Shown: one piece after another, positions 3,405-38,650 of the stretch
How positions within the stretch are numbered: the first letter of the stretch is position 1
Layout of the letters: each line of letters opens with the position of its first letter
Source of the DNA: Pseudomonadota bacterium
GTDB lineage: Bacteria; Desulfobacterota; Desulfobulbia; Desulfobulbales; SURF-16
Direction: 5' to 3'
Assembly: GCA_018897105.1 (NCBI GenBank)
Contig: JAHILF010000023.1
Coordinates: 1 to 38,650 of the forward strand
Length of the DNA stretch: 38,650 bases
The notes under the pieces: model-generated
Database searches by the model: none
Told to the model about the DNA's origin: nothing
Seen by the model: only the letters and a program-made list of their open reading frames with translations
Position numbers and translations under genes: made by a program

Positions 3405-5222
3405 ATGTTCTGCGTAATTCTTCATCTCCATTGCAAAATGAACAATATCAAACCAGAATACAGTGCCATATATCATCAGGAGCAGCAGGACCTGCTTCAC
3501 CAACGGGCCAACGTTACTCTCTGGACAGTGGCTATATTGATTCCACTCTTTTCAATTCTGGATTATGTAGCCGTCCGTCATTTTTTCAGCAAATTTCTTG
3601 TCTGGCGGCTATCCGCCGCTCTCTTCTGCCTTTTCGTTCTTCTGCTCAACTACAGGGACATAAATAAACGATACCCCTTCATCTTCGGAACCAGTGCCTA
3701 TTTCGTCTCAGCCCTTACCATTTCACCCATGATTGTCCAGACAGGGGGATTCTCCTCGTTTTATTACGTAGGGCTCATCCTGGTTCTGGTCATTTTCGCC
3801 GCCATCTTCCCGCTGACCATGCCACAAACCGCGACACTTGGCGGAATCCTGTTTGGCATCTATGCTGGACCAATTTTTATCTTCAATCCACTGACAATTT
3901 CCGCCTTTCACGACTTTCTCGTCAATTCTTTCTTTTTTATAACCTTCATTATTATCGTTGCCGTACAAAGTAATGCGGAACGCAAAGCACGAATAAACGA
4001 ATTTAATCTGCGCATGAGAGAAAGGGCAATAGGGAAAAAATTAAGTTTTTATGCCGGAAAGCTGGAGGATGATGTTAAGACGAGAACCAATGAGCTGAAA
4101 GAATTCGAAAGCCGCTATCGAGATCTGTACGAAAACATCATAGACGACGTTATCCTTGTTGACCTGGAAAACAAGATTCTCTTGGCAAATCCCCGGTTCT
4201 ATAAAAATTTACATCTGCAGGAAACTGATCCGGACATTGATTTTCTTAACCTGGTTCATCAAGCAGATGTTTCTCGCGTTCAGTCTCAGCTGCTGCGCAA
4301 ACTCCGGCAGGGAGAGAATGTCACAGGCTGCCAGTTCAGACTGATCGGCCAAGGCAACAATCTCTTCAATGTGGAATGCAATGCCACCGGTATCAGAAAG
4401 GAGGGAATCCTGGTAGGTTTCCAGATGCTCATCAGGGATATATCCACCCGTCTCAAAATGGATAACGAATTGCTGCAGTCATTGAATACAGTGCAGGAAA
4501 CAAGAACCGCCACCATTCTCGGCCTGGCCAAGCTGTCCGAGTACCGGGATATGCATACCGGCAAACATCTGGAAAGGATACGGGAATATAGCCAAGTCAT
4601 TGCCAGAGAACTGGCCACCCGGGATGAATATAAAGAATATATCAACAATCAGTATATCGAAGATCTCTACCATTCCTCTATCCTCCACGATATCGGCAAA
4701 GTAAGCATACCCGACGAAATACTTCTCAAACTGACCAAGTTCACGCCTGAAGAAAACGAGGCCATTAAACAGCATACTACTTACGGCGGCAATATACTCA
4801 AAGCGGTGGATGACCATACCTTGGAGCAGTCCTTTTTATCCATGGCGAAAACAATTGCCTATTTCCACCATGAAAAGTGGGATGGCACCGGATATCCCTA
4901 TGGTCTCCGGGAAGAAGAAATCCCACTGGCCGCGCGTATTGTTGCCTTGGCCGATGTCTATGATGCACTGACCACCGTGCGGAAATACCGCTCAGCCTGC
5001 CCCCACGAGGAGGCTATGGAAATAATTGCCCAGGAAAAAGGTCGTCACTTTGCCCCGGATATTGTCGATGCATTCATGGTTTGCAACACGACCTTTAATC
5101 AAATCAGGCAAGGATATGCAACCGAGGAAGACGCGGCCCCCTCATTTACCAAATCGGATTGTTATAAACCTAGAAAAATCCCACCTGCAGAGTATTCTCC
5201 CGACTTCTCCCTAAGCAGATAG
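3405..5222 (+). CDS. Membrane-bound PAS/HD-GYP cyclic-di-GMP phosphodiesterase
   Basis: HD-GYP enzymes hydrolyse c-di-GMP to pGpG or GMP. The first ~200 residues contain about six hydrophobic helices (a membrane sensor of no family I recognise). A basic, probably coiled segment (about 195-235) follows, then a PAS-like domain (about 236-355). The catalytic domain occupies about 360-580, with HDIGK at 428-432 and HHEKWDGTGYP at 488-498, so both the HD metal motif and the GYP signature are intact. The gene starts 114 nt after the adhesin terminator hairpin and is probably its own unit. ATG 3405 is the longest start; ATG 3438 (MNNIKPEY) is equally possible, and neither has a convincing ribosome site. 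Next to a c-di-GMP riboswitch-controlled adhesin, it could lower local c-di-GMP. Confidence 0.9.
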   Translation: MFCVILHLHCKMNNIKPEYSAIYHQEQQDLLHQRANVTLWTVAILIPLFSILDYVAVRHFFSKFLVWRLSAALFCLFVLLLNYRDINKRYPFIFGTSAYFVSALTISPMIVQTGGFSSFYYVGLILVLVIFAAIFPLTMPQTATLGGILFGIYAGPIFIFNPLTISAFHDFLVNSFFFITFIIIVAVQSNAERKARINEFNLRMRERAIGKKLSFYAGKLEDDVKTRTNELKEFESRYRDLYENIIDDVILVDLENKILLANPRFYKNLHLQETDPDIDFLNLVHQADVSRVQSQLLRKLRQGENVTGCQFRLIGQGNNLFNVECNATGIRKEGILVGFQMLIRDISTRLKMDNELLQSLNTVQETRTATILGLAKLSEYRDMHTGKHLERIREYSQVIARELATRDEYKEYINNQYIEDLYHSSILHDIGKVSIPDEILLKLTKFTPEENEAIKQHTTYGGNILKAVDDHTLEQSFLSMAKTIAYFHHEKWDGTGYPYGLREEEIPLAARIVALADVYDALTTVRKYRSACPHEEAMEIIAQEKGRHFAPDIVDAFMVCNTTFNQIRQGYATEEDAAPSFTKSDCYKPRKIPPAEYSPDFSLSR

Positions 5223-33684: not shown

Positions 33685-33720
33685 CAGATGGGGTAAAAGG
33701 GGGAACGTTTGACCTGACAG

Positions 33721-33750
33721 TAGTTATGTTGCGCGATTAGTTATGTTGTG
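33721..33750 (+). repeat. Left-end recombinase-site boxes (direct repeats)
   Basis: TAGTTATGTTG occurs twice, at 33721-33731 and 33738-33748, period 17. The outer copy contributes the terminal inverted repeat. The inner copy continues TGTC instead of CGCG. Paired boxes fit binding by more than one recombinase subunit. Confidence 0.65.
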
Positions 33751-33857
33751 TCTTTTTCTTCTCTGTTTGCTTTTCTTTTTCCCTTCCGTAGTTCTTTTTT
33801 TTTATCTCTTCTTCATCCTTTTTCTTTGCATCTTGTTCCTTTTCTTTCTTTTCTTGA
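33751..33857. other. Pyrimidine tract at the element's left end
   Basis: About 100 nt of almost pure C/T on the plus strand (TTTTTC, TTCTTT and TTTTTTTT runs). On the opposite strand it would encode a Lys/Glu-rich peptide (33737-33952), which I do not call as a gene. It may be a spacer, an unwinding region or part of an antisense transcript. Confidence 0.6.
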
Positions 33858-33864
33858 ATAATCA

Positions 33865-33997
33865 GTACTTGGAAAGTACCCATAACGAACGAAAGGCCCG
33901 AAGCAGCCACTTCGAGCCTTTCTACGGACATCCCGTAAATACGGAAGCCCAACCAGCACCTTCATAATAACCACGGCTTCCGTTTTTGCGCAAGTAC
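33865..33997 (+). ncRNA. Candidate structured RNA or leader of the RIT element
   Basis: Potential stems: GTACTTG (33865-33871) with CAAGTAC (33991-33997) as a closing helix; GAAAGGC-C-CGAAG (33891-33903) with CTTCG-A-GCCTTTC (33910-33922) as a 12-bp arm with one mismatch and a 6-nt loop; ACGGAAGCC (33941-33949) with GGCTTCCGT (33975-33983), 9 bp, followed by TTTTT. GTACTT can alternatively pair locally with AAGTAC (33874-33879), so two folds compete. The zinc-ribbon ATG follows 7 nt after the closing arm. It could be a regulatory leader, an attenuator or a separate element RNA. Nothing known matches. Confidence 0.45.
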
Positions 33998-34003
33998 GCA
34001 AGA

Positions 34004-34168
34004 ATGGAAATCACTTTACTGAAGGCTGTTTCGTGCCGGCGGTGTGCCAGGATTTTTTATATCTGCCGGAGCTGTTGGCGGGGGCAGGCCTACTGTTGTG
34101 ATGCTTGTCGGCAGACTTCCCAGCGCGAAGCACACCGCGAGCGCAGAAAAAATATCGCCAGACACTGA
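34004..34168 (+). CDS. Zinc-ribbon element protein, short (0-frame) product
   Basis: A 54-codon frame rich in paired Cys: SCRRCARIFYICRSCWRG then YCCDACRQ, giving three CxxC knuckles likely to bind zinc, then a basic tail (QREAHRERRKN). It stops at TGA 34166. The natural continuation (YRQTLKGREAHRQAERRRR, then a further CHFCG and FPRRGYGRR) lies in the -1 frame, so this is either the truncated product of programmed frameshifting or a decayed gene. ATG 34004 is 7 nt past a structured leader; TTG 33986 is a longer alternative. Ribosome site weak. I recall related ORFs before RIT recombinases in Desulfobacterota, but did not check. Confidence 0.6.
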   Translation: MEITLLKAVSCRRCARIFYICRSCWRGQAYCCDACRQTSQREAHRERRKNIARH

Positions 34169-34183
34169 AGGGCCGAGAGGCCC
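34147..34183 (+). promoter_or_regulatory. Candidate -1 programmed ribosomal frameshift site
   Basis: A_AAA_AAT (34147-34153) is an X_XXY_YYZ heptamer in the zinc-ribbon frame, 12 nt before its stop. A -1 slip leads into a frame open to 34827. A 5-bp GC stem, GGGCC-GAGA-GGCCC with a GNRA loop (34170-34183), lies 16 nt downstream, farther than the usual 5-9 nt, and no upstream Shine-Dalgarno-like stimulator is obvious. The signal is therefore partial. Confidence 0.45.
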
Positions 34184-34419
34184 ACCGGCAAGCAGAAAGA
34201 AGGCGAAGAAGGCACGATCCGCAAAAAACCGTGGCTGATGCATCTTCAACACCCGCTTTTCCGCATGATAAGCTCCCTCACGATGTCCCGTTTAGCATTG
34301 CCTGCTGCCATTTTTGCGGTGAAGGCGGTGTGGTTGTGGCGCATTTTCCACGGCGGGGCTATGGGAGAAGATATTTACAGCGATCAGTATCAAGCCATCT
34401 TGTCATGTTGGAGGAGCAC
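34154..34419 (+). other. Frame -1 continuation of the zinc-ribbon protein
   Basis: In this frame the sequence keeps protein-like features that complete the zinc-ribbon protein: YRQTLKGREAHRQAERRRRR, HDPQKTVADASSTP, a CCHFCG knuckle and HFPRRGYGRRYLQR. It has no start of its own that fits (the TTG at 34105 is inside the zinc-ribbon) and no stop before the HTH-like gene. Either ribosomes enter by -1 slippage and make a roughly 275-residue fusion, or an indel removed the reading frame. Confidence 0.5.
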
Positions 34420-34827
34420 ATGGTCAATAAAGAACCCCTTGTCAGCCAGCGCATCAGGAAGATAGAAGGCAGTTTTGCCTGGATCAGTCACCGTTTTCTG
34501 AGAAGCGGTTTCTTTGCCAGCCTCAGCCCGCATGAATTACTCTTGTACTTTTTCCTGTTGCTTGCGGCCGACCGCCAGGGACTTTCCTATTACCACTATG
34601 ACAAGATCTGCTCTTTGCTCCGTTTCTCTGTGGAAGACTATATCGTTGCCCGTGACCAGTTGATAGAAAAAGACCTGATTGCCTTTGACGGCACCTTTTT
34701 TCAGGTCCTCTCCTTGCCGCGGGTTCCTGTGGTCCAACCCCCCAGGTTGCTCAAAACCAGGGAAGCAATGGCAGCGGCCGATCCCGCCACCATCGGGCAA
34801 ATCATTCGCCGGCAACTTGAGCCGTGA
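34420..34827 (+). CDS. HTH-like accessory protein of the RIT element
   Basis: A 135-residue protein. ATG 34420 has GGAGGAG 5-10 nt upstream, so it is translated by itself as well as possibly by fusion to the zinc-ribbon protein. SFAWISHRFLRSGFFASLSPHELLLYFFLLLAADRQGLSYYHYDKI and the following SLLRFSVEDYIVARDQLIEK look like a winged-helix/replication-initiator-type helical fold (long run described, not quoted in full). No enzymatic motif is seen. The GTGA overlap with the first recombinase gene couples their translation. Probably a DNA-binding regulator of transposition. Confidence 0.62.
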   Translation: MVNKEPLVSQRIRKIEGSFAWISHRFLRSGFFASLSPHELLLYFFLLLAADRQGLSYYHYDKICSLLRFSVEDYIVARDQLIEKDLIAFDGTFFQVLSLPRVPVVQPPRLLKTREAMAAADPATIGQIIRRQLEP

Positions 34828-36011
34828 CCATGAATCATAAGGATTCACCCAAACTCGCGCAGACAGTTGAGCAATATCTCCTGCAGCTCATCGAACAGGG
34901 ATATCCGGATACATACATCAACGCTCGGAGGAAGGCTCTTCAGGATTTCCGCCTTTTTGTGGAACGGCAGCCGAAAAAATGGGACGAAATCTTTACCTTT
35001 GAAACATTGAAAGAATTTATGCAGCAGGACGACGGTAAAAAAGGACGATCCGCGGTTCGAGGGCTGGCAAGATTTCTTTATCAACAAAAGCAAATCTCTC
35101 AGCCCATCCCATTAAAATCAAGACAAAAACTGCCCGGCATTTTTGAGGACTATCTGCATTATTGCGCCACGGCCCGTTATGATACTGAACAAACGGTGCA
35201 GCATACACGTCGGGTTCTCGAGGCTTTCCAGCGCTATCTCAAGCGGCACACTATCAATCTTTCGGCCATAACAATCGAGCAGGTAGATGCCTTTGAACGC
35301 CAATACAATGCAGCTTATGCCCGGCACAGCCAGAAATTTAACCGGAGTTGCTTCAAAATTTTCCTGAAATACCTGTATCATGAGCGTCGTGAACTTACAC
35401 GAGACATTGCCGCTTTGCTCAAAGTGCCGCGAATATTTCATCGGACAAAACCACCCTGCTTCTTGCGCACTGACGAAATTCAACAACTCTTTGACAGCAT
35501 GAGCCTGTCAACCCCTGCGGATTTGCGAACCAACGCCATGATTCATATCGCGTATACCATGGGACTGCGTCCTCAGGAAATTTGTCGGCTCACCCTGGAT
35601 GATATTGAGTTCAGCAAGGCAGAGATGCGCATAAAAGATCGTAAGGCCGGCTCACCTATCACGCTGCCAATCCCGCCAAAGACACTCAAGGCTATTGTCG
35701 CCTATGTGGTCGAAGGCCGTCCGGAGAATAAATATCGCGAGCTTTTCCTGCGATGCCAACGGCCCAACGACCCTATCAGCCAACCGAATGTGTCCTATGC
35801 CATAAAGGCATGTATGCGAAAGGCCGGCTTGCCTGAAGAGGCTACCCCTTACTGGCTGCGTCACACCTATGCCCAGCACCTGTTGGAGGCCGGGGTCTCG
35901 GTCTTTGAGATCAAGGAAATGCTCGGGCATGACGACATCGATGCCACCAGAAGATACCTCCATATTCACATCAAACTCATGAGGAGGGTTGTTCTTGGCG
36001 AAATCGTTTGA
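34824..36011 (+). CDS. ritA: Tyrosine recombinase 1 of the RIT trio (RitA-like)
   Basis: A 395-residue tyrosine recombinase. An N-terminal SAM-like binding domain precedes a catalytic domain with R249 (GLRPQE), R346 in YWLRHTYAQHLL, H369 (MLGHDD) and nucleophile Y378 (TRRYLHIH). The first His of HxxR is Tyr343, a natural but unusual variant, so activity may be altered. It starts at GTG 34824 overlapping the previous stop (ATG 34830 is possible). It overlaps ritB by 17 nt. The three recombinases probably act as a mixed complex at the TTATGTTG boxes. Confidence 0.87.
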   Translation: MTMNHKDSPKLAQTVEQYLLQLIEQGYPDTYINARRKALQDFRLFVERQPKKWDEIFTFETLKEFMQQDDGKKGRSAVRGLARFLYQQKQISQPIPLKSRQKLPGIFEDYLHYCATARYDTEQTVQHTRRVLEAFQRYLKRHTINLSAITIEQVDAFERQYNAAYARHSQKFNRSCFKIFLKYLYHERRELTRDIAALLKVPRIFHRTKPPCFLRTDEIQQLFDSMSLSTPADLRTNAMIHIAYTMGLRPQEICRLTLDDIEFSKAEMRIKDRKAGSPITLPIPPKTLKAIVAYVVEGRPENKYRELFLRCQRPNDPISQPNVSYAIKACMRKAGLPEEATPYWLRHTYAQHLLEAGVSVFEIKEMLGHDDIDATRRYLHIHIKLMRRVVLGEIV

Positions 36012-36978
36012 AAGCTTCCTCGCGCCACAGATGGAAAAGTATCTCGAGTATCGCGGCAGCCTTGGTTACTCCGGAAAAGCAATGGACGGTCTGAGACTCT
36101 TAGATCGTTACCTGGTGACGAAAAACGTTACCACGCTCAAGATGCTGACACCTTTGTTCTTCCTGCGGATGCGGACTGATCTTGCGATAAATCAGAACAC
36201 GATAAATGGAGTAATCTATGCCTTGCGCGGCTTTTTTCACTACCTCGTACGCATTGAGTTCTGTCAGCATAATCCGCTTGCCGGGATTCCCCGTTTCAAG
36301 GAAAATAACATTATCCCCTTTATTTTCTCCGAGCAGGAGACGAAACATCTGCTCGAAGCGGCCTGGCGACAAGTCCGGAGAGAAAATCAGAATTTTTTCC
36401 TCAAGGACATGGGGTGTTGTCTGGCTCTGCAGCTCCTGGCCCGTTGCGGCTTGCGGATCTCTGAGCCTCTGCGGCTAAAACTCAGGGATTTCAGGGCTGA
36501 TGAAAGAACAATCTCTATCAGAGAGACAAAGTTCCGCAAGGATCGCTTGATTCCCATCCCTGTTGACGTGGCAAGACACCTGGCGGATTATCTATGCCTT
36601 CGCAGCGCCTTGCTGCCTGCGGATAATCATAATCCGTACCTTCTGGTCAGCGGTCCCGGAAAGGGGTTGTATAATGCGCAGGTTCGCAATTTTTTCCACC
36701 AGGCAGTCAGAGAAATCGGACTTGCCCAACCTAAACGGATCATCGGCAACACCAACATCAGTGCACCAACCCCGCACAGTCTGCGGCATTCCTTTGCAGT
36801 CAACACCCTCAGACGGATAAAAAAACGGGGTGATTCACCACAGAATGCGCTGCCGGTTCTTGCGGTATACATGGGCCACAAAAAATACATCTATACCATC
36901 TATTACCTCAAACTGATCGATGCCGACCAGCGCCGGAATCTCGTTGATTTTATAACTTCGTACCCATCGAGACTATGA
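35995..36978 (+). CDS. ritB: Tyrosine recombinase 2 of the RIT trio (RitB-like)
   Basis: A 327-residue tyrosine recombinase with complete catalytic residues: R154 (GLRISEPLRL), H261 and R264 in HSLRHSF, His in MGHKK and nucleophile Y304 in YYLKLI. The N-terminal domain (MAKSFESFLAPQMEKYLEY) is the usual SAM-like fold. TTG 35995 is chosen because GAGGAGG lies 8 nt upstream; TTG 35989 is too close to it. It overlaps ritC in ATGA. Confidence 0.87.
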   Translation: MAKSFESFLAPQMEKYLEYRGSLGYSGKAMDGLRLLDRYLVTKNVTTLKMLTPLFFLRMRTDLAINQNTINGVIYALRGFFHYLVRIEFCQHNPLAGIPRFKENNIIPFIFSEQETKHLLEAAWRQVRRENQNFFLKDMGCCLALQLLARCGLRISEPLRLKLRDFRADERTISIRETKFRKDRLIPIPVDVARHLADYLCLRSALLPADNHNPYLLVSGPGKGLYNAQVRNFFHQAVREIGLAQPKRIIGNTNISAPTPHSLRHSFAVNTLRRIKKRGDSPQNALPVLAVYMGHKKYIYTIYYLKLIDADQRRNLVDFITSYPSRL

Positions 36979-37994
36979 AACTTTCAAGCTGCATTCACCA
37001 ATTCTTCGGGCAGTATCTCCCCCGGATCAAAGGGTGCGGGTCCAATACGATCAAAGCCTACCGTGATGCTTTCTCTCTCTTTCTGCCCTTTGCCAGGGAC
37101 GCACTTGGTACCCCCATCGACTCTTTGCAGGTTGAGCAACTCACTCCGGAACTGATTGTGAAATTTCTTGGTTGTCTCGAAGAAGAGCGGGGCAATGTTG
37201 CCAGAACCAGAAATCACCGGCTGGCAGCCATAAAATCTCTGGCCAAGATGATTCTTTTTATGCATCCGGACATGCGGGATGTTGCGGCAAGGATATTGGC
37301 TATTCCCAAGAAGCGCTCCCACAGAAAGATAATCGGCTTTCTGCATCAAGATGGAATTCTGGCTGTCCTCGGTTCCGTTGATCTCCGCTCAGCACAAGGC
37401 TTCAGGGACTACACCCTGCTGAGTCTGCTTTTCGACTCCGGCGCCAGGGCCGGCGAAGTGGCCGCGCTTGATCTCGACTTCTTTGATCCGCAGAAAAAAA
37501 CGCTGGCCATTCTCGGCAAAGGTGGGCGCTTCAGAATGATAAACCTCTGGCCCAAAACGACGGATCTCCTTTGCCGGTATATCGAAAAATACCGGATTGC
37601 ACCACATCCTCTCTACAGTAATCGCTTATTTCTCAATCAGCGGGGAAAGGAACTCACCCGGCACGGGATATATCGGCTCTGCCGTAAATATCTGGAAAAA
37701 GTCCTGCCGGCGAAACGGCTGAAAGATCTCAACCCTGCCCACAGCTTCAGGCATTCCTGCGCGGTGAATATGCTCCTGGCCGGGCACCCCATATCCGACA
37801 TAAAAAACCGTCTCGGTCATGACAGCGTGCAATCGACCACGGTCTATCTGCACCTTGATTTAGGGCACCGGCAGCAGATCCAGAAAAAATTCATCACCTA
37901 CACACAGTCACTGCTGAATCAGGATGACAAGATAGATGAATTGATCGACTGGGAGAACAGGGAGGAAATTTTAAATTGGCTTGATAGCCTTTAG
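36975..37994 (+). CDS. ritC: Tyrosine recombinase 3 of the RIT trio (RitC-like)
   Basis: A 339-residue recombinase with R158 (GARAGEVAAL), H256 and R259 in HSFRHSCAVN, His in RLGHDSVQS and nucleophile Y291 (TTVYLHLD), so the full catalytic set is present. The N-terminal core-binding domain spans about 1-110. It has an acidic C-terminal tail (DDKIDELIDWENREE) not seen in the other two. It is the last gene; the 187-bp right end follows without a strong terminator. Confidence 0.87.
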   Translation: MKLSSCIHQFFGQYLPRIKGCGSNTIKAYRDAFSLFLPFARDALGTPIDSLQVEQLTPELIVKFLGCLEEERGNVARTRNHRLAAIKSLAKMILFMHPDMRDVAARILAIPKKRSHRKIIGFLHQDGILAVLGSVDLRSAQGFRDYTLLSLLFDSGARAGEVAALDLDFFDPQKKTLAILGKGGRFRMINLWPKTTDLLCRYIEKYRIAPHPLYSNRLFLNQRGKELTRHGIYRLCRKYLEKVLPAKRLKDLNPAHSFRHSCAVNMLLAGHPISDIKNRLGHDSVQSTTVYLHLDLGHRQQIQKKFITYTQSLLNQDDKIDELIDWENREEILNWLDSL

Positions 37995-38181
37995 GGGCTC
38001 TTTGATCCCCGATAAGGTTGACGGACAAGTAGGAAAAATTCAGATAAGTTATGTTGCATGAAAAAGGAGAATGACTTCTGAAAACAGCAAAACCGTCTGA
38101 AATGAAAAGAAAAATGCTACTATCGATAGCGCATCAAGAAAATCTTTTTATTTCAATTAGATAGGTCAACTCGCAACATAA
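37995..38181. repeat. Non-coding right end of the RIT element
   Basis: A 187-bp AT-rich stretch. TTATGTTGC occurs at 38049-38057 in the same orientation as the left boxes, and GCAACATAA at 38173-38181 inverted, so the right end carries a facing pair 115 bp apart. A 10-bp palindrome, CTATCGATAG, lies at 38120-38129. These are probably recombinase binding sites. Confidence 0.6.
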
Positions 38182-38650
38182 CAGTAGACATCGCAATCTG
38201 GGGATAATTTAGCATACTCTGATGTTGGATTTGGCAACCTCAAAGGCTGAACGATTTACTACACCAGCCAGCACAGGTGAACAGAAGAGGATAGCAAAAA
38301 ATAATTTCTTGGGGTCAATGTTCAGCGATCACAACCACCACCACCTCCTTGTTATGGAGGTTGTAATGCCCAAGGGAGTGACGAACAAGAAGGCGGTTAA
38401 TTGGGGCGCTTGCTTTTTAATAATCAAGTTGCACGTACCTTGAATTCAAGCAAATTTATTTGTCGGTGAATTTTCATCTATGTGAGACCGTTCACGGTAA
38501 TTGATGGATGGTTCGTCACATTGTTTGAGGGATGATCCGCAAATGGTAGCCGGACAATTCCTTCCACCTGGGGCTCTGCCCCAGACCCCGAGGTTTTTAA
38601 GGCATAAAGGCTCCTCGGAAATATCGAAAAGGCTCAAAAAAAAATGGGGA
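38182..38650. other. Downstream region without a recognisable gene
   Basis: After the element there is no convincing coding sequence. A 73-codon frame (38222-38443) shows no domain and no ribosome site. CTGGGGC-TCT-GCCCCAG (38568-38584) is a perfect 7-bp hairpin followed by ACCCCG, of a type repeated in proteobacterial intergenic regions. Confidence 0.5.

Follow-up and report, generated by a model that had tools for sequence, protein, structure and literature searches.

Introduction

RIT elements, such as those of Cupriavidus metallidurans CH34 and of Rhizobium plasmids, have overlapping A-B-C tyrosine recombinase genes and inverted ends. Here we describe an element that, judged by the sequences of its genes, is a RIT, in a stretch of 38,650 nucleotides (contig JAHILF010000023.1, positions 1 to 38,650 of the forward strand, assembly GCA_018897105.1) from a Pseudomonadota bacterium placed by GTDB in Desulfobacterota; Desulfobulbia; Desulfobulbales; SURF-16. 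This whole stretch is called the window below. The element lies at 33724..38181 on the forward strand (4458 bp) and is flanked on both sides by the hexamer CAGTAG. We are confident, though short of certain, that the recombinases RitABC act on a dif-like att site in which this hexamer is the 6-bp crossover spacer, and not a duplication made by a staggered cut. The element differs from described RITs in its length (they have about 3500 bp; PMC3414803), in two passenger open reading frames (ORFs) upstream of ritA, and in a 133-bp right-end module with arms, whereas 13 of the 18 distant plasmid loci analyzed below have an adjoining 20-bp palindrome. All papers with PMC numbers are cited from excerpts.

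Terminal inverted repeats of RITs are reported as 34 bp in a table note of PMC10214605. The excerpts of a 2012 survey report no convincing RIT repeats beyond an inverted repeat and an overlapping palindromic sequence (PMC3414803), and those of a 2023 comparison of tyrosine-recombinase transposons enter RITs as untested for target specificity, empty site and movement (PMC10214605). Some of the anatomy described here may already be in print in Ricker 2013, the main paper on RIT organisation; on RIT crossover sites and RIT-derived miniature elements, the matches listed in our literature search held nothing beyond the papers cited.

Several other systems resemble the element in part. Inverted terminal motifs occur in SE elements, where donor and target exchange a 6-bp spacer, and in Tn554, which has a 6-bp footprint (PMC10214605). 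Both differ in gene content (IntA-Tfp-IntB-Srap or TnpABC, in contrast to RitABC with two passengers in the window, the sets being compared by description only), and a strict strand bias is not indicated in the RIT copies seen here. GInts also have three recombinase-like genes and are flanked by imperfect direct repeats of element and target bases, but they possess four essential genes (ginABCD), cargo that varies in size up to 70 kb and repeats of 10-17 nt (PMC5385486). In published proteobacterial dif sites, two 11-mers enclose a central hexanucleotide (PMC2731167). The dif/XerCD system is alike in its two inverted arms around six bases, and CATAA-N6-TTATGTT is common to the RIT joint proposed below and to a dif-like site of the host; it differs in that the arms of the RIT joint are symmetrical and end in GCG, that the RIT has recombinases of its own, and that its target is not dif. 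Mobile elements exploiting Xer differ in the same respects, as the unit in the window has its own trio and its insertion site is not the dif-like site.

Results and Discussion

Boundaries of the element

The outer limits of the unit are set by a perfect 10-bp inverted repeat: the arm TTATGTTGCG at 33724-33733 and its exact reverse complement CGCAACATAA at the right end, where TTATGTTGCG is read on the reverse strand (38172..38181). Immediately outside stand the two identical forward-strand hexamers, at 33718..33723 and 38182..38187, which we read as crossover spacers in attL and attR, respectively. With both ends fixed beforehand by the inverted repeat, equal adjoining hexamers are expected by chance in about 1 of 4096 cases. 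The original prediction had placed 10-bp inverted ends at these positions with CAGTAG outside both, and had proposed comparing the end points of other copies. The letters of the window and the relatives agree with it: alignments to relatives that reach an end start at query position 18-19 (window 33717-33718) or stop at 4485-4488 (window 38184-38187), and homologous copies have the same boundaries. Copies with another hexamer (L030 and L036; L, G and C are our handles for loci, genomes and contigs) start at query position 24, and L036 stops at 4483, which is the inner border of the hexamer to within a base.

Two inverted arms around six bases are the layout of tyrosine recombinase core sites, and tyrosine recombinases normally leave the crossover spacer in attL and attR. 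Further copies of the end motif, absent from the original prediction, were found inside the element. At the left end (33724..33750, forward strand) the outer arm is followed by a second motif, TTATGTTGTG, at 33741, 17 bp further in; at this distance from the outer arm the motif is clearly recognizable at the left end but weak at the right end. At the right end an inward copy at 38049 turns the last 133 bp (38049..38181, forward strand) into a module armed on both sides (TTATGTTGCATG ... CTCGCAACATAA). Beyond the hexamers lie putative target arms, both on the forward strand: the left one (33711..33717) reads GACCTGA and the right one (38188..38199) reads ACATCGCAATCT.

The host genome itself (G000, 177 contigs) contains 15 occurrences of TTATGTTGCG, compared to two of a reversed control pattern. 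One full RIT was found in it; the remaining matches are end fragments, small derivatives or apparently unrelated. At one place in this genome (contig C69, 28822-28966; L014 and L043) two outward-facing left-type ends stand 125 bp apart with the hexamers CAGGAA and CAGTAG; the sequence that separates them is hairpin-like, and there is a tRNA-Arg gene at a distance of about 140 bp. The 18 kb read there showed no right end that matches with one mismatch or none. The right flank of the element in the window (38343-38650) includes sequence that recurs in contigs C156, C3 and C117 of the host genome and in genome G018.

Hexamers at related copies

Alignment of the element to 97 genomes yielded matches in ten, the host genome included. 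Patterns for the two ends, neither containing the hexamer, were searched in 257 genomes of the order: the right-end pattern ACTCGCAACATAA had 54 matches in 25 genomes (13 for the reversed control), and the left-end pattern had 53 matches in 26 genomes (one for the control). After right ends with fewer than 30 bases of flank and duplicates had been dropped, a hexamer of the CAG type was found at 28 of 49 distinct right flanks and at 32 of 49 distinct left flanks; some of these 49 right flanks are chance matches or belong to a second subfamily, mainly from genome G100, whose hexamers are different. The outer flanks of CAG-type copies differ from each other and yet share a target consensus, clear on the right (NAATCTNAANTT) and weak on the left ((A)GATRWA). 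Judged by frame length, most flanks in the lineage of the window show no long frame reaching the junction that would indicate insertion into a transposase gene.

In genome G100 (L118-L125) the right-type pattern matched 11 times, and after four of these matches stand TAATGA and a common flank, CGCATTGGGCGTACTA; these repeats apparently form another subfamily of end-bearing repeats. Contigs that end at the end motif (G000:C58, G138:C157 and G042:C10) were considered as traces of a hot inner joint and discarded, because they end 139-141 bp inside the repeat, and about 126-127 bp inside for G134, which are the distances expected for assembly k-mers.

Both ends could be read in 13 related insertions, the window included. 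The two hexamers were equal in nine of them, with six different hexamers represented: CAGTAG (window, L199 and L134), CAGGAA (L126 and L191), CTTTGG (L149), GGCAAG (L153), GGGTCA (L217) and GATGAG (L220). When right hexamers were shuffled among the copies, 2.8 equal pairs were obtained on average, and at least nine had a p of 0.00015. The CTTTGG, GGCAAG, GGGTCA and GATGAG pairs carry most of the weight here. In the remaining four insertions the hexamers differed by one or two bases: CAGTAG/CAGGAA (L044), CAGGAA/CAGTAG (L045), CTGGAA/CAGGAA (L151) and TAGTAG/CAGTAG (L047).

The hexamers could also be fixed parts of the element ends, in which case the element would have 4470 bp and no target bases would be repeated. 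Matches to other copies usually include all or most of CAGTAG, many copies share it, and in one distant plasmid locus without a palindrome (L285) the hexamers beside the arms are reverse complements, as if they belonged to the inverted repeat. This explanation is nevertheless very improbable, given the copies with quite different, mutually equal hexamers (the four pairs outside the CAG group) and the single hexamer found at unoccupied sites, CAGTAG itself in two empty counterparts of a CAGTAG copy (L260 and L261).

Unoccupied sites

The original prediction expected empty sites to hold a single CAGTAG. Homologous unoccupied sites do hold one hexamer; it is not always CAGTAG, and the sites are those of related copies, not that of the window. 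The clearest case is a transporter gene of genome G134, probably Desulfogranum marinum, that is split by a RIT; five left ends, each with its own flank, were found in this genome. The left flank, on contig C176, ends within the gene and the right flank, on contig C169, resumes it; the two contigs presumably flank one RIT copy. Joined with one CAGGAA, the gene aligns without gaps to the intact orthologues of the congeners G133 and G138, whereas joining with none or two gives two gap positions per alignment and scores lower by 4-7 bits. At the insertion site these orthologues read CAGGTT and CAGGCT.

The site of L199 is unoccupied in L260 and L261 (G204 and G214), each of which has one CAGTAG and homology on both sides at 71-72% identity. 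It also has one CAGTAG in L259 (G213), where homology extends just 9 bp past the junction, and CAGTAG is again present in L262 and L263, which match L199 on the left side only. These five loci (L259-L263, in G213, G204, G214 and G210) belong to a dispersed repeat with a CAGTAG site in every one of them; its folding has a z of -1.77, and in L259 and L260 a CTTTGG site lies near the CAGTAG site in the opposite orientation. The armed element L220 (2892-3279 of this locus, G189:C265; 388 bp) has GATGAG on both sides and sits within a hairpin, which we take to resemble domain V of a group II intron. Unoccupied sites of this type (L253, L254 and the better match in L264) have one TATGAG, one base away from GATGAG; a poorer second match in L264 departs further. 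The unoccupied counterpart of L217 (L251) has one AAGTCA, and that of L149 has one CTTTGG, with homology almost wholly on the right. A comparison for L126 (G134:C44) was set aside, its homology being nearly all on the right side.

Equal hexamers around nine of 13 copies, the window included, and one hexamer at unoccupied sites are also what a true target-site duplication would leave, that is, a staggered 6-bp cut of a random target followed by gap repair in the manner of DDE transposases. We consider this explanation improbable. The hexamers are not random, being of the CAG type at 32 of the 49 distinct left flanks and 28 of the 49 distinct right ones; four of the 13 copies are unequal, with CAGTAG/CAGGAA pairs among them; and tyrosine recombinases are the only recombination enzymes found in the unit, no DDE transposase domain being detected in the four unit proteins scanned, a set that leaves out the frameshifted passenger. 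The original prediction had regarded the flanking repeat as a duplication unusual for a tyrosine recombinase. That reading, a transposition-type duplication, probably does not hold in view of the unequal flanks, the near-constant hexamers at unrelated sites and the symmetry of arm, six base pairs and arm.

Distant RIT elements on plasmids

Eighteen distant RIT loci on plasmids were read; they include close relatives (four from Rhizobium leguminosarum, the same family as L285) and are therefore not 18 independent cases. In 13 of them, one side of the element has beyond its arm a 6-bp spacer, then a 20-bp palindrome whose arms are similar, and then a further hexamer. The palindrome is perfect in seven of the 13 and departs at 2-6 of 20 positions in six. 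If the unit is taken to include it, seven loci (L274, L276, L278, L279, L281, L283 and L284) have identical outer hexamers and four (L269, L270, L273 and L275) have outer hexamers with one mismatch. The inner hexamer is the exact reverse complement of the outer left one in L275, L279, L281 and L284, with one mismatch in L276, L278 and L283, two in L273 and L274, and 3-4 in the four R. leguminosarum loci. All 13 loci have an octamer of the form NNATG... 17 bp inside the left arm, as in the window; in four it is AGATGTGG.

With one hexamer kept, the interrupted gene can be read through in L270, L271, L278, L279, L281, L283 and L284. IS66 genes are annotated near L270, L271 and L281, and the IS21 gene istA at L273 and L278; istB and tnpC at the junctions were read from translations, or from flank similarity for L273 and L274. 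Within the pairs L269/L270, L273/L274 and L275/L276 the RITs have opposite orientations and, as judged by eye, the palindrome is on the same side of the target.

Such loci bear on a further explanation, in which the six bases are the same spacer and the element moves by strand-biased copy-out and copy-in, as in SE elements and Tn554, so that the circle would have the hexamer of one flank only, and this hexamer would always land on one defined side. In SE elements a 6-bp spacer lies between the inverted terminal motifs, and six bases of the left flank come to form the new right flank (excerpts of PMC10214605); RITs share the layout of arm, six bases and arm, and copies with unequal hexamers do exist. 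Yet one genome, G002, has copies with CAGTAG/CAGGAA and, in the opposite order, with CAGGAA/CAGTAG, and in R. leguminosarum the hexamer that sister copies have at the inner joint lies on the palindrome side in three loci (L269, L270 and L272) and on the RIT side in the fourth (L271). Both observations are suggestive only; the mixed order leans against a strict strand bias, and we regard this explanation as rather unlikely.

Proposed mechanism

Under our preferred reading of the hexamer as a crossover spacer, the circle, whether excised or copied, would have the joint CGCAACATAA-CAGTAG-TTATGTTGCG, in which two inverted recombinase-binding arms surround six base pairs. RitABC would bring this joint together with a degenerate target that is built alike, about GATRTA-CAGKAR-NAATCTNAA, and strand exchange over the hexamer would leave one spacer copy at each side of the insertion. 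Where the spacers of target and circle are alike, equal hexamers, that is, a direct repeat, would result; where they are unlike, the flanks would be unequal. The single assumption of strand exchange across six bases can explain both the repeat in the window and the copies with unequal flanks. Anatomy, boundaries, conserved hexamers, unequal pairs and the one hexamer at unoccupied sites of related copies are observed; what we infer are the circle, the positions of cleavage, the assignment of Rit proteins to arms and the route of excision.

A number of observations weigh against this reading. No circle or excision product was observed, the consensus of the left target arm is weak, and equality within the CAG group is weak evidence because two hexamers dominate. 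The empty site of the window itself was not found, its left flank being conserved only to the end of yjbQ and its right flank reaching the contig end, and several of the unoccupied sites are paralogous repeats (71-76% identity) or are matched mainly on one side (L149, L126 and L217). Among the distant loci with a palindrome, the outer hexamers of L271 and L272 differ at 4-5 positions. In five of the 18 loci (L277, L280, L282, L285 and L286) no palindrome unit could be read: the arms of L285 and L277 are not accompanied by a palindrome and their hexamers are not direct repeats (TGCCGT/ACGGCA, which are reverse complements, and TCTGCC/ATCAAG, respectively), the ends of L280 read CGGATC/GAGCCG with an ambiguous unit, and L282 and L286 yielded no ends. 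Joining L269 or L272 does not continue a homologous frame. Moreover, a six-base repeat keeps the frame at zero, one or two copies (L270), so that the frame alone is no proof of one copy.

A search of the host genome for CATAA-N6-TTATGTTAA with at most one mismatch gave three matches (one for the control), one of them dif-like and intergenic (CATAA-TGTATA-TTATGTTTA). The locus L289 (1500-1525; G000:C136:77291) reads CATAATGTATATTATGTTTA and lies between genes not identified by search; it is possibly the chromosomal dif site of the host.

Genes of the element

The three recombinase genes are open, overlapping frames in the same direction on the forward strand, all with matches to PF00589: ritA (34830..36011; start ATG at 34830, GTG at 34824 also possible; E 1e-32), ritB (35989..36978; start TTG at 35989 or 35995; 5e-18) and ritC (36975..37994; 2e-21). 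They were compared with six trios from the 18 distant loci, on plasmids of Rhizobium (two), Paraburkholderia, Enterobacter, Thiodictyon and Streptomyces. In all six, the best match of each protein was its own counterpart (RitA to RitA, RitB to RitB, RitC to RitC), at 24-37% identity. The assignment to RIT follows from these matches and from the invariance of most residues of the catalytic motif, and the open frames, PF00589 matches and order of the trio bear out the predicted RIT element with three intact overlapping recombinase genes.

Residues invariant over the seven rows include R247, K272, R344, H345, H367 and Y376 in RitA, R152, R262, H263, H293 and Y302 in RitB, and R158, K182, H256, R259, H282 and Y291 in RitC; those we take to be catalytic were assigned by the usual motif of tyrosine recombinases. 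The first histidine of this motif is not invariant in RitA, where the window has tyrosine, nor in RitB. RitA has 395 residues from the GTG; its sole SAM-like match, at 108-187, is below the Pfam cut-off and is preceded by about 100 residues. RitC extends 48 residues beyond the presumed catalytic tyrosine. In the excerpts of PMC8138268, RitA is described with two core-binding domains and RitC with an extra C-terminal helix.

Of the two additional ORFs that had been predicted, both on the forward strand, the second (34420..34827), which encodes a small protein, helix-turn-helix-like by eye, and ends just 5' of ritA, is intact, but the first (34003..34427), cysteine-rich and zinc-finger-like by eye, is frameshifted in the window. 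The first is open in L034, L035 and L149, and a truncated match in L050 is open as far as the sequence goes; a programmed frameshift was considered and rejected in view of the uninterrupted ORF in L034, L035 and L149. The second passenger had no match in Pfam or NCBIfam at E 0.001 and none in plasmids by tblastn at 1e-5. In genome G003 (L049, C67, 3957-4812), similar cysteine-rich and small ORFs, both open, lie upstream of a ParB-like gene and an IS21-like pair, as judged by eye. Because a similar ORF pair precedes these other genes, the passengers look like exchangeable cargo.

Short derivatives and movement of RITs

Ten of the 13 two-ended copies have 133-461 bp and are too short for the recombinase trio; they are candidate non-autonomous elements that may be moved in trans. 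Two of these loci, L134 (G173) and L047 (G004), contain relatives of the 133-bp right-end module standing alone. As to the three long copies, the window and L149 have RITs and the third, L153, has 3914 bp.

We tentatively suggest, while giving it somewhat less than an even chance, that RITs move as circles with two joints, composed of the trio and a minimal module of two back-to-back arms. The module would be the 20-bp palindrome, perfect or imperfect, in the 13 distant RITs and the 133-bp module in the lineage of the window. The joints would carry a spacer and, in less altered cases, its reverse complement, and would thus have the same polarity, so that either could attack the target; the RIT could then take either orientation, and the palindrome would still keep to one side of the target. 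The idea is based on the three insertion pairs (an IS66-like, an IS21-like and an enterobacterial plasmid site) that show both RIT orientations with the palindrome on the same side. Armed modules could also spread alone as small non-autonomous elements.

The sequence of the joint, the spacer predicted for it, the consensus of the target and the short non-autonomous candidates now make polymerase chain reaction across the circle joint, excision reporters and target mapping possible. The reading of the hexamer as a crossover spacer gives a rule for annotating the exact ends of RITs, and it suggests, in concrete and testable form, how members of this poorly understood family may insert.

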